Source of the DNA: Methanofollis ethanolicus
GTDB taxonomy: Archaea > Halobacteriota > Methanomicrobia > Methanomicrobiales > Methanofollaceae
Length of the DNA stretch: 64,000 bases
Assembly: GCF_001571385.1 (NCBI RefSeq)
Contig: NZ_BCNW01000001.1
Span: forward strand, 124,001 to 188,000
Reading direction: 5' to 3'
Within the stretch, counting starts at the first letter, position 1. Each line of letters begins with the position of its first letter. The position numbers were made by a program, and so were the translations under genes. The notes under the pieces are model-generated. The model was not told the DNA's origin, did no database searches, and was given only the letters and a program-made list of their open reading frames with translations. Shown here in pieces: positions 52,989 to 56,393 of this stretch.

Positions 52989-53549
52989 TCACCGCTTTTT
53001 CCCCTCTGCAAGGACGGGGGCGATGAGGTCTCTGAGCGTCCCGCGATCACGTGATGTCTCCCAGACCCCCGGTCCGTCCGGTGCCAGTGTGCGGATTATG
53101 TTCTGTTCTTCGCCACTGTCCACGAAGAACACCGCTTCGCTGATGGTGATCTGCCGCGGAGAACCATCGACGATATACCTCGTCTCGAATGTCGTGGGCT
53201 GAGAGAAGCGGAGGGCGACATAGGTGCTGTTTCGTTTCATCGCTGCCAGTTCTTCCTGAGAGAACCCAGTCTTGAGCTGCGCATTGATGCACCTGATCAA
53301 CTCCTGGCATTCCGCATCGATGGCAGGATAGCGTTCGTCCTCGGGGTAGAGCAGGACGCTCCGACCCCCCGCTGGGTGGATGTCGAGATAGGCCGTGTCA
53401 TTCCGCGGGGTCGGCTGCACCGTCGGGAGGACGGTCATGTTCTCCTGACCTTCCGGCGTTGCGGCGGGGAGAAAAACGGCGAGCAGGAGCACGACGACAA
53501 GCACGGCCGCAATACCGGCGGCAATGACATAGAGATATGCTTTTTTCAT
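52989..53549 (-). CDS. Membrane-anchored extracytoplasmic protein, unknown
   Basis: 186 aa. An N-terminal signal anchor (about 7-30, VIAAGIAAVLVVVLLLAVFL) and an external domain with beta pattern (FSQPTTFETRYIVDGSPRQI). It reads like a small stress-sensing or peptidase-inhibitor domain, without a motif I know. It is 10 bases after a small membrane peptide gene, downstream of leader copy 1. Confidence 0.7.
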   Translation of the reverse strand: MKKAYLYVIAAGIAAVLVVVLLLAVFLPAATPEGQENMTVLPTVQPTPRNDTAYLDIHPAGGRSVLLYPEDERYPAIDAECQELIRCINAQLKTGFSQEELAAMKRNSTYVALRFSQPTTFETRYIVDGSPRQITISEAVFFVDSGEEQNIIRTLAPDGPGVWETSRDRGTLRDLIAPVLAEGKKR

Positions 53550-53558
53550 CAGATCGCC

Positions 53559-53687
53559 TCAAAAAAGGAGAAAGGTTGGATGATTACTTGACCTCCGGGA
53601 TCTCTCCTTCGAACTCAGGATTACCACGCTCAGCAGCAATAGTGCCGCAGGTATGGAAATAACCCACATTTTCCTTTGTTCATTCAT
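53559..53687 (-). CDS. Small membrane peptide downstream of leader 1
   Basis: 42 aa from ATG 53687, with GGAGG 8 bases upstream. MNEQRKMWVISIPAALLLLS, then VVIL, is a short lead and one hydrophobic helix, followed by a basic tail. A shift to another frame after VVI gives an acidic tail NPEFEGEIPEVK ending at a stop, so an indel may have occurred. The strong ribosome site supports translation. Function unknown. Confidence 0.5.
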   Translation of the reverse strand: MNEQRKMWVISIPAALLLLSVVILSSKERSRRSSNHPTFLLF

Positions 53688-53691
53688 TCCA

Positions 53692-53838
53692 TCTACCTCC
53701 GCTTTATCCCGGAGGCGCGGGCCATACCTTCAAGTAACAGAAGGGAGTACAGTGTCATACCTCCGGGCACGTGCGGGGCCCCGTCAGAGTCTTGACAACG
53801 TGGCGGGGCCCTGCCGGGAGATTCTTTTGATCTCCACA
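53692..53838 (-). promoter_or_regulatory. Structured 5' leader, copy 1
   Basis: Between a TATA-like ATATATAATAC (53858-53868) and the GGAGG ribosome site, three stems can form: GGGCCCCG (53804-53811) with CGGGGCCC (53776-53783); CCCGGAGG with CCTCCGGG (53760-53767 and 53708-53715), closing a 44-base loop; and within it CCTTC with GAAGG. The same stems exist in copy 2 at 55936-56088, with one compensatory pair change. Candidate cis-regulatory RNA for exported proteins. Confidence 0.55.
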
Positions 53839-54108
53839 ACACGAAATATCCGTGCCGTATTATATATCATTTCTGGCACGATCATCTAACAGTCGCGGGA
53901 CATTCACCCGCTGGCGCCGACGCATCGAACCTTAAAAATACGATCTCCTGCATCGGCGTTTCTCCTGCCACTCCGCCGGGGAAAAACATCCCATTATGTG
54001 TACCGCTCTCGATCGAATCTCCGTCCTGCACCGCGACGGCCCTCTGGAAAAGACCGCTCCACCATGATCATGACCGCGGCGGTGCCGCCGTACAGACACA
54101 AAAAAATC
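53839..54108. repeat. Upstream flank duplicated at 56089-56337
   Basis: Left copy of an approximately 400-bp duplication (53693-54108 versus 55947-56337) that includes the promoter and leader. Identity is high throughout, with scattered changes. It ends where a type A element begins (54109); the sister locus at 56337 runs on uninterrupted, so it shows the empty site. Confidence 0.75.
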
Positions 54109-54365
54109 GGCTCTGTAGAAACCCTCATACTTGGATCAATGGATCCTCTGACCATGAAGAGGTAGCGGATCCATTGCCTTCCTCACGATCTAGTCGGGGG
54201 ACTACGCCCCTGAACACTCGAAAACCTTCGGTTTTCTCGAACTCGCTAACGCTCGTTCCCCCCACCATTGCGATAGGGAGCGGATGGCCGCCTTCTTCAA
54301 TATACAGAGTTTATCCTTCCCCTGTCCTATCCTATTTTCGGGGGCCAGGAATTTTCCCTGTCGCT
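54109..54365. repeat. Type A element, right end lost
   Basis: Left terminus GGCTCTGTAGAAA (54109-54121) follows AAAAAATC, which equals the uninterrupted sequence of the sister duplication at 56330-56337. The interior has the element's usual GGGGGACTACGCCCC core and a hairpin module at about 54219-54262. No right terminus is found before the lipoprotein gene; 54366-54455 shows nothing. Confidence 0.75.
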
Positions 54366-54455
54366 TCCACCTGATGGGATGATGATCGACGAGATGAATC
54401 TCCCGTCGTCGTCTCTTCGGTGATCGAAGTTCTCCTGATGTGCCCTGCGTTCCTA

Positions 54456-54911
54456 TCAGTGCGTATCCAGGGGTGTGGGGAGGGGCACCGTGGGGGGCAC
54501 CGTGGGTGTTTCGCCTCCCGGCGGCGTCGATATCGGCTGCGTTACCGAAGGCATGATGACCGGCGTCCGGATGTAGTTCTTTGTGATTGAGACCACGGTC
54601 TCCTTCTCCAGGTCCACGAACACCCAGAGTTGTGCGTCTTTTGTTTTTATTGCGACGGTCGGCACTGTTTCCGATCGTTCCACCCCTCTGAAGGCGTGTG
54701 TTACGGTGTTATAGTCCACGTCCGCGATCTCGTAGTCTCCATGGAGGTAGTCCTGCACGGTGGCGTTCGCAAGGGCGATCCTGACGGCCTCCGCCTTCTC
54801 GTCCTCCGTGAGGCCGGAGGGGGCCACAGGCCCGTCTCCATTCTCTACGCACCCGGCTACGAGTACAAAAAAGAGGATGAGTGCTCCTGTGGCGATCAGG
54901 CGTCCTGTCAT
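54456..54911 (-). CDS. Predicted lipoprotein, unknown
   Basis: 151 aa from ATG 54911. The signal peptide ends in the lipobox LVAGC (about 16-20). A small domain with a PepSY-like look (EDEKAEAVRIALANATVQDY, then AQLWVFVDLEKETVVSITKN) follows, and a Pro/Thr-rich C-terminal tail (about 115-151) typical of surface linkers. The start overlaps the stop of the upstream secreted protein by one base spacing, so the two are co-transcribed behind leader copy 2. Confidence 0.75.
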   Translation of the reverse strand: MTGRLIATGALILFFVLVAGCVENGDGPVAPSGLTEDEKAEAVRIALANATVQDYLHGDYEIADVDYNTVTHAFRGVERSETVPTVAIKTKDAQLWVFVDLEKETVVSITKNYIRTPVIMPSVTQPISTPPGGETPTVPPTVPLPTPLDTH

Positions 54912-54912
54912 A

Positions 54913-55935
54913 TCAGATCCAGGTATAGTATTTCCATGCATTTCCCACTATGCTATGGGATTCCCGTATTGGACAGGGGGTGGGAGAACAGCCCCAATCT
55001 GTGGGAACATCCGAGTTCCACCTCACCCCCCCACTATTCCCCTGATAAAGGAAACCATCTCGAAAGACTGCAGTTCCTGAATCATCTGTCCACACAGGAA
55101 CACTCTCATCTGACCAGATCTCATTGGCGTGATTAACATCATTTTCTCTGAATGCCAGATGTCCGCTCCGCACCCAATTATCATCTATCCAGATGTGGTA
55201 CAGATAACCTCCACTCTCATATGTATCAGTTACGTAGATAGCATAATTCCTGTAGGTTGAAGAATCGGTTTCCCCGTGGAACTGCCATTCGCCCTCGTCA
55301 TTATCGTATGTAAAGCATTGTTTCATGTTGTCTGGAACGGATCGTGCAACGCCCACTTCTGTCCAGCATTCAGTCGAGGGATTCGGCTTCTTTCCAACAT
55401 GTGTGGTAATCACATGTTGGTAAGTCCCATCTGGTTCTACGAGCATTTCGCTCGGCTTCATATACACGTTGATTCCTCTGTACGCGTTGTTATTGGTGAC
55501 AGACATCATCTGGAGTGCCTGTTCAAGTGCTCTTGTGCTGCTTTCCGCACTGAATGGTGAGTAATCGGGACCTCGAATTTTCTGAATAATTTTCAACTCT
55601 TCTGTTGACGGGGGAGTTCCTTTCCAGCATGCTCCGGTATCTGGATACCACCCATACCCTTGTTTTGCCAGTTCTCTTGTAATGTCATCGTTAGCGTAAT
55701 TTTTAGACTTTAATTCGTTGATGAGTGTCTTTGCAGGACTTTCAAATTCATTGAGTTTTGCTGCTTCTTCTTTTGTGGGCAAGCGCTCCCGAATAACTCC
55801 CGGATCGAGAGATTCATACTGGTCGGTCGCTTCCGGCATCGCAGTTATTGCATTCACCGCCGATATTCCTGCTATGCTCACCAGCAGAAAAGCGAGGAGC
55901 AAGGAGAATGCCTGCATTACAATTCTTTTTTTCAT
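54913..55935 (-). CDS. Large secreted protein, unknown
   Basis: 340 aa. A signal peptide (about 1-30) precedes a Glu/Lys-rich lead with LPTKEEAAKLNEFESPAKTL and a beta-rich C-terminal domain (about 140-340) with GVARSVPDNMKQCFTYDNDE, YAIYVTDTYESGGYLYHIWI, DDNWVRSGHLAF. The strand pattern resembles a lectin-like or concanavalin-type sandwich, but no active-site motif stands out. Its base composition is visibly AT-richer than neighbours, which suggests later acquisition. First gene behind leader copy 2. Confidence 0.7.
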   Translation of the reverse strand: MKKRIVMQAFSLLLAFLLVSIAGISAVNAITAMPEATDQYESLDPGVIRERLPTKEEAAKLNEFESPAKTLINELKSKNYANDDITRELAKQGYGWYPDTGACWKGTPPSTEELKIIQKIRGPDYSPFSAESSTRALEQALQMMSVTNNNAYRGINVYMKPSEMLVEPDGTYQHVITTHVGKKPNPSTECWTEVGVARSVPDNMKQCFTYDNDEGEWQFHGETDSSTYRNYAIYVTDTYESGGYLYHIWIDDNWVRSGHLAFRENDVNHANEIWSDESVPVWTDDSGTAVFRDGFLYQGNSGGVRWNSDVPTDWGCSPTPCPIRESHSIVGNAWKYYTWI

Positions 55936-56088
55936 GTTTTCTACCTCCAGTGTTCCCCGGAGGCACGGGCCATACCTTCAAGTATCAGAAAGGAATACAG
56001 TGTCATGCCTCCGGGCAGTGCGGGGTCCTGTCAGAGTCTTGACAACGTGGCGGGACCCTGCCGGGAGATCCTTTCGATCTCCACAACA
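55936..56088 (-). promoter_or_regulatory. Structured 5' leader, copy 2
   Basis: Homologous to copy 1. Stem 1 pairs GGGTCCCG (56051-56058) with CAGGACCC (56023-56030): relative to copy 1 one C-G pair became T-A, a compensatory change, while one pair is lost. Stem 2, CCCGGAGG with CCTCCGGG, is unchanged (56008-56015 and 55956-55963). The inner CTTTC/GAAGG hairpin keeps pairing through a G-T wobble. A TATA-like element lies at about 56104-56114. 56115-56393 is duplicated flank and contains no gene. Confidence 0.55.
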
Positions 56089-56393
56089 CGAAATATCCAT
56101 ATTGTATTATATATCATTTCTGGCACAATCGTCTAACAGTCGCAGGATTTTCACCTCCCCGAACGGATGCATCGAACCTGAAAAATACGATCTCCCGCAT
56201 CGGCATTTCTCCTGCCTTCCTCCAAGGAAGAACACCCTATTCTGGCATCCTGCGCTCAATCAGATCTCCGTCCCGCACCGCGACGGCTCTCCTGAATAGA
56301 CCGCTCCACCATGGCCGGGGCAGTACAGACACAAAAAAATCCTCCTCTTTCCTGTACCACAACGCAGATATCCCATCCCCCCATCAGTCCTCC

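Follow-up and report, generated by a model that had tools for sequence, protein, structure and literature searches.

Ribosomal-protein operator leaders allow mRNA-binding regulators to control several genes via a conserved hairpin near the Shine-Dalgarno sequence (SD). In Archaea, validated native riboswitch-like elements are few (PMC11549558). For Methanolobus psychrophilus, the accessible part of one study gives 51% of mRNAs with 5' UTRs longer than 50 nt and predicts stem-loops masking ribosome sites; it deals with temperature and alternative starts, and that part describes no motif shared by secreted-protein genes (PMC5378194). The regulation of archaeal secreted products, including predicted peptidases, is little known.

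The leader family analyzed here resembles translational riboswitches in having a structured 5' leader with covariation and a strand predicted to alternate between an anti-sequestor role and pairing with the SD. Unlike them, it has neither a known ligand nor an Rfam family match, and what its genes have in common is export, not a metabolite pathway. As in ribosomal-protein operators, several genes stand under one conserved hairpin close to the SD, but the leader is not located upstream of ribosomal-protein genes and no protein partner is known. An SD hairpin in the 5' UTR is common to this leader and bacterial RNA thermometers, whereas the predicted ground state of the leader keeps the SD accessible.

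Two members of the family, leaders A and B, are located at positions 53692–53838 and 55936–56088 of the window (the whole 64,000-nt stretch of DNA analyzed), both on the minus strand, exactly where a sequence-only reading had placed two homologous structured leaders. Each is flanked, as that reading had it, by an archaeal TATA box and by an SD with a start codon (Table 1). Its description of the stems was also accurate: the CCCGGAGG/CCTCCGGG stem is identical in A and B, the CCTTC/GAAGG stem becomes a U-G wobble in the other copy, and in the GGGCCCCG/CGGGGCCC stem copy B has exchanged one C-G pair for T-A and lost another (C-A). Both leaders fold more stably than dinucleotide shuffles, with z-scores of -2.95 and -3.18.

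Table 1. Positions in the window of the features of leaders A and B and of the adjacent genes.
Feature	Position	Strand	Remarks
Leader A conserved promoter-upstream block CGACTGTTAGATGATCGTGCCAGAAA	53870–53896	-	Corresponds to RCGTGTAR-N19-21-TATA of the Methanoculleus copies
Leader A TATA box TGATATATAAT	53859–53869	-	From sequence; related leaders have TATA-like boxes at a similar distance
Leader A hairpin H1 (GGAGATC/GATCTCC type)	53817–53835	-	
Leader A stem-loop H2 (GGGCCCCG/CGGGGCCC)	53776–53811	-	Arms covary across the family
Leader A hairpin H3 (CCCGGAGG...CCTCCGGG)	53708–53767	-	Covariance-model hit 53685–53768
Leader A H3 conserved apical segment TACTTGAAGG	53728–53737	-	From the conservation line of the alignment
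Leader A Shine-Dalgarno GGAGG	53696–53700	-	Complementary to H3 3' strand (53708–53715)
Leader B TATA box	56107–56117	-	From sequence; similar distance in related leaders
Leader B hairpin H1	56064–56082	-	
Leader B stem-loop H2 (GGGTCCCG/CAGGACCC)	56023–56058	-	Relative to A, one compensated and one lost pair
Leader B hairpin H3	55956–56015	-	Covariance-model hit 55933–56016
Leader B Shine-Dalgarno GGAGG	55944–55948	-	Complementary to H3 3' strand (55956–55963)
42-aa ORF after leader A	53559–53687	-	Signal-peptide part only
Gene of 186-aa membrane-anchored protein	52989–53549	-	A counterpart follows copy C, with 85% identity over 157 aa
Gene of 340-aa secreted protein, signal peptide MKKRIVMQAFSLLLAFLLVSIAGISAVNA	54913–55935	-	No match in Pfam/NCBIfam
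161-aa lipoprotein-like ORF (LVAGC lipobox)	54456–54941	-	Overlap with the 340-aa gene at the latter's 3' end

A covariance-model search of related genomes identified leaders A and B as two members of a much larger family. A DNA search revealed a third copy in the window genome, along with relatives from the genus and from family f4; model R1 was built from 11 core sequences and model R2 from 139 hits in fetched loci. The element was matched by covariance model in 62–63 of the 232 genomes of the window's order/class, R1 accounting for the count of 62. Phylum-wide, R2 matched 64 of 393 genomes, and among those listed all belong to the window's order or to families f8, f30, and f36. Family f8 is probably Methanosarcinaceae; provided that the likely placement in Methanosarcina holds, existing genetics can be used to test the leader. 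According to R2, the 2.7 Mb window genome carries seven copies and one Methanoculleus up to 21. The loci are frequently arranged in tandem, a few kb apart. At the gathering score the leaders had no match in Rfam 15, and a permissive-threshold Rfam scan around the window leaders placed no family on them. An exact pattern search of viral contigs, bearing on a virus origin, returned no match. No description of the leader was found in a literature search, while a prior one cannot be excluded. The family of structured leaders linked to genes for exported proteins is real, widespread, and apparently undescribed.

The element is a 5' leader of about 150 nt, comprising, in 5' to 3' order, a promoter block, the TATA box, H1, H2, H3, the SD, and ATG, with a conserved P1-to-ATG spacing (interquartile range 84–87 nt). 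The sequence of H1 varies between subfamilies, yet many of them retain a hairpin fold (mean z -1.4), and H1 is the least well supported element. Tandem CGCGGAGGCTCAAAACAGCGTTCGCAAAA repeats directly precede one Methanoculleus leader (locus L051, upstream of 3034) and look like a duplication of the H1 region. The long stem H2 is represented in f8 by the versions GAAGTTCAAA/TTTGAACTTC or GGGGTTCAG/CTGAACCCC. H3 contains inner stems along with the conserved UACUU(R)A segment; its fold has a mean z of -4.1 in 36 diverse representatives. In many copies the TATA box is preceded, at a distance of 19–21 bp, by the motif RCGTGTAR, with GTGTAR occurring upstream of TATA in 71 of 172 copies versus about 9 in shuffles; this promoter motif suggests that the regulon has a transcription factor in common.

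The element precedes dozens of secreted-protein genes, many of them coding for predicted enzymes, in several methanogen lineages. An ORF with a hydrophobic N terminus follows 161 of 170 distinct leaders, compared with 19% of 57 window genes, and the proposed role as an element of exported-protein messages thus holds family-wide. By sequence reading, several of the nine exceptions look frameshifted or truncated. Among the Methanoculleus members the signal peptide hardly varies (MNGKIGMRAFS-LLAV-LVSV---VPAVSA). As for the riboswitch criterion of a gene set serving one metabolite, what the genes share is the signal peptide, while the mature parts of 115 proteins form 46 k-mer clusters under the grouping used, mostly unrelated to one another. 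Pfam matches above the cut-off were Transglut_core, Peptidase_C39_2, and DUF6345, with Reprolysin_5 and Zn_dep_PLPC below threshold. Many leader-bearing proteins had no Pfam match, so the label "hydrolases" is only partly supported for this regulon.

Among the products assigned earlier to the window genes, the "small membrane peptide" needs correction: the 42-aa ORF matches only the signal peptide of secreted proteins that are longer, and is probably a truncated secreted-protein gene. The pair of 42-aa and 186-aa genes also follows the third copy (copy C, G000:C1:499441-499524, in the coordinates in which the window is G000:C1:124001-188000). Very short ORFs consisting only of a signal peptide stand after several leaders of the window genome (window 53559–53687; L007 2819–2944; L142 5966), which suggests that the mature part has decayed or been rearranged.

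We consider it fairly likely, with a probability of roughly 0.6, that these sequences form a cis-acting structured 5' leader RNA family controlling translation of a secreted-protein regulon in methanogenic archaea by a two-state switch; this is inferred from comparative sequence analysis and modelling. Without transcript, binding, or expression data, and with the signal unknown, the two-state translational model is the best reading of the mechanism. The leader would be transcribed from the conserved promoter, and closed H3 would allow the ribosome to bind. A signal, not identified, acting at H1/H2 or at the UACUU(R)A segment would open H3, and the freed CCUCC strand would then sequester the SD and stop translation. 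The reverse logic, in which a factor stabilizes H3, is equally possible, and the candidate signals are a protein, a metabolite, or an sRNA. More tentative, at slightly under even odds, is the wider proposal of an undescribed native archaeal class of translational switch in several methanogen families, in which one RNA sensor, part of a reusable promoter/signal-peptide 5' cassette, would control an arsenal of secreted proteins including many hydrolases. The leader is multi-copy, occurs in several families, and heads secreted-protein genes including predicted peptidases.

The UACUU(R)A segment remains constant while the surrounding pairing differs between families, and one leader is common to many different genes in a regulon-like manner. 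Both observations would fit a trans-acting regulator, protein or sRNA, that recognizes this segment, with H1/H2 serving as a scaffold and no ligand-binding aptamer being present. Such a regulator is a serious possibility, somewhat short of an even chance, and overlaps with the two-state switch, since it specifies the kind of signal. No candidate partner was found, however. The complement of UACUU(R)A is absent from the 7S RNA and the 16S locus of the window genome, and the predicted pairing energy of the loop with 7S RNA was no better than for shuffles; neither 7S (SRP) RNA nor 16S rRNA is supported as a pairing partner of this loop.

The expression platform of the proposed two-state switch would rest on the 3' strand of H3 (UGCCUCC-like), which is complementary both to the H3 5' strand and to the SD. 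Its pairings are mutually exclusive: with the 5' strand, leaving the SD free, or with the SD, hiding it. The native anti-SD:SD duplex had a value of -11.15 versus -10.36 for permuted combinations, and 0 of 2000 permutations were as strong. Within f8 the SD tracks the 3' strand (0/5000 permutations), as in the strand/SD combinations CCUCCUAGG/CUAGGAG, UGCCUCG/CGAGGUA, and UGCCUCU/AGAGGCA, and in the first and last of these it does so even with the H3 5' strand unchanged. This covariation is weak and marginal within f4 (Methanoculleus; 178/5000) and absent within f1 (2307/5000). Blocking the H3 5' strand lowers the predicted probability that the SD is unpaired from 0.54 to 0.05; this decrease follows in part from the complementarity itself, and the SD covariation is the stronger evidence. 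Judged by sequence and folding alone, the leader satisfies the riboswitch criterion that two mutually exclusive pairings leave the SD free or hide it, with the weakness in f4 and absence in f1 noted above. Of the suggested riboswitch-like character, an expression platform thus exists on paper, while no ligand or regulator is known.

The predicted stability of H3 greatly exceeds that of the sequestering hairpin, and the OFF state therefore depends on some aid that has not been identified. In three copies (for example, L049:11191) the SD abuts H3, with little space for a sequestering loop. The predicted stable state, in which H3 leaves the SD largely free (median ground-state unpaired probability 0.61 across leaders; 0.27–0.51, lower, in the two window leaders), together with the conserved distance from H3 to the start codon, could instead indicate a constitutive mRNA stabilizer, translation enhancer, or ribosome standby site, where H1–H3 would shield the 5' end and keep the SD exposed without any switching. 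This is rather unlikely, as it accounts neither for the SD following the H3 3' strand nor for the conserved unpaired UACUU(R)A segment. The same ground state makes an RNA thermometer, in which melting exposes the SD, very improbable. An SD-sequestering hairpin is available as an alternative fold, but the SD would be hidden only if the H3 5' strand were unavailable, the opposite of a zipper thermometer, which requires an SD paired in the ground state.

Within single genomes, leaders up to 95% identical head genes of unrelated mature proteins, so that the promoter-leader-signal-peptide front appears to have been copied and joined to different genes. This combination of one front with many mature proteins suggests a route to new archaeal secreted proteins. 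Since the similarity of A and B spans about 440 bp and extends well upstream of the TATA box, these two copies by themselves cannot show whether constraint on the RNA or a recent duplication is responsible, a question answered by the wider family. Pure DNA-level duplication of the cassette, with the RNA structure inherited by chance, would account for these observations and for the spread of the element, but not for its structure. It is scarcely tenable, since the helix-level covariation contradicts it: diverged copies retain their H2 and H3 pairing beyond arm swapping and shuffles.

In the alignment-free test, exchanging arms between leaders weakened H2 (z -10.4, 0/5000) and the inner pairing of H3 (z -6.6, 0/5000). 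These cross-family permutations carry no correction for relatedness, and the within-family values are safer: the H2 signal persists in f8 (z -4.1) and f1 (z -3.3) and is absent within Methanoculleus, and that of inner H3 is not significant within f8 alone. When a tree-aware, site-specific null was applied to a sequence-only alignment, P2 (8/400), P3 (5/400), and P4 (0/400) showed more compensatory double changes than expected. Alignment A4 contained 113 cells with compensatory double changes versus 66.7 +/- 14 when shuffled, and A5, mostly of other families, 101 versus 51.7 +/- 5; pair counts in both also exceeded slid registers, both alignments having been fitted to the model structure and hence biased towards it. 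An R-scape-like G-test with APC and a tree-based null, applied to H3 and to the whole leader, found no significant structural column pair. Subfamily differences dominate single-pair scores, and helix-level tests were used for this reason. RNAalifold gave no useful consensus on the whole sequence-only alignment. A competing inner hairpin S2 (columns 20–25 with 31–36) had weaker support than the long hairpin. The riboswitch criterion of conserved secondary structure with compensatory changes is thus met by the putative helices, except that the single-pair all-pairs test is not significant. The covariation check with more homologs, proposed from sequence alone, accordingly succeeded for helices and failed for single column pairs, and the helix-level excess over chance supports the earlier interpretation as a cis-acting RNA.

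The least credible alternative is leader-peptide (uORF) attenuation, in which GGAGG-c-ATG inside H3 opens a 21-codon ORF ending at the main SD: readable on the minus strand in H3 of both A and B, this ORF is not kept in the wider family, 107 of 146 distinct leaders having no ATG there and only 8 of 146 a stop after at least 10 codons, so a conserved uORF attenuator is rejected.

A palindromic repeat-like stretch (CTCGAAAACCTTCGGTTTTCTCGA...) was observed at window positions 54180–54260, with the promoter of leader A on one side and the lipoprotein gene on the other; it could be a remnant of a mobile element.
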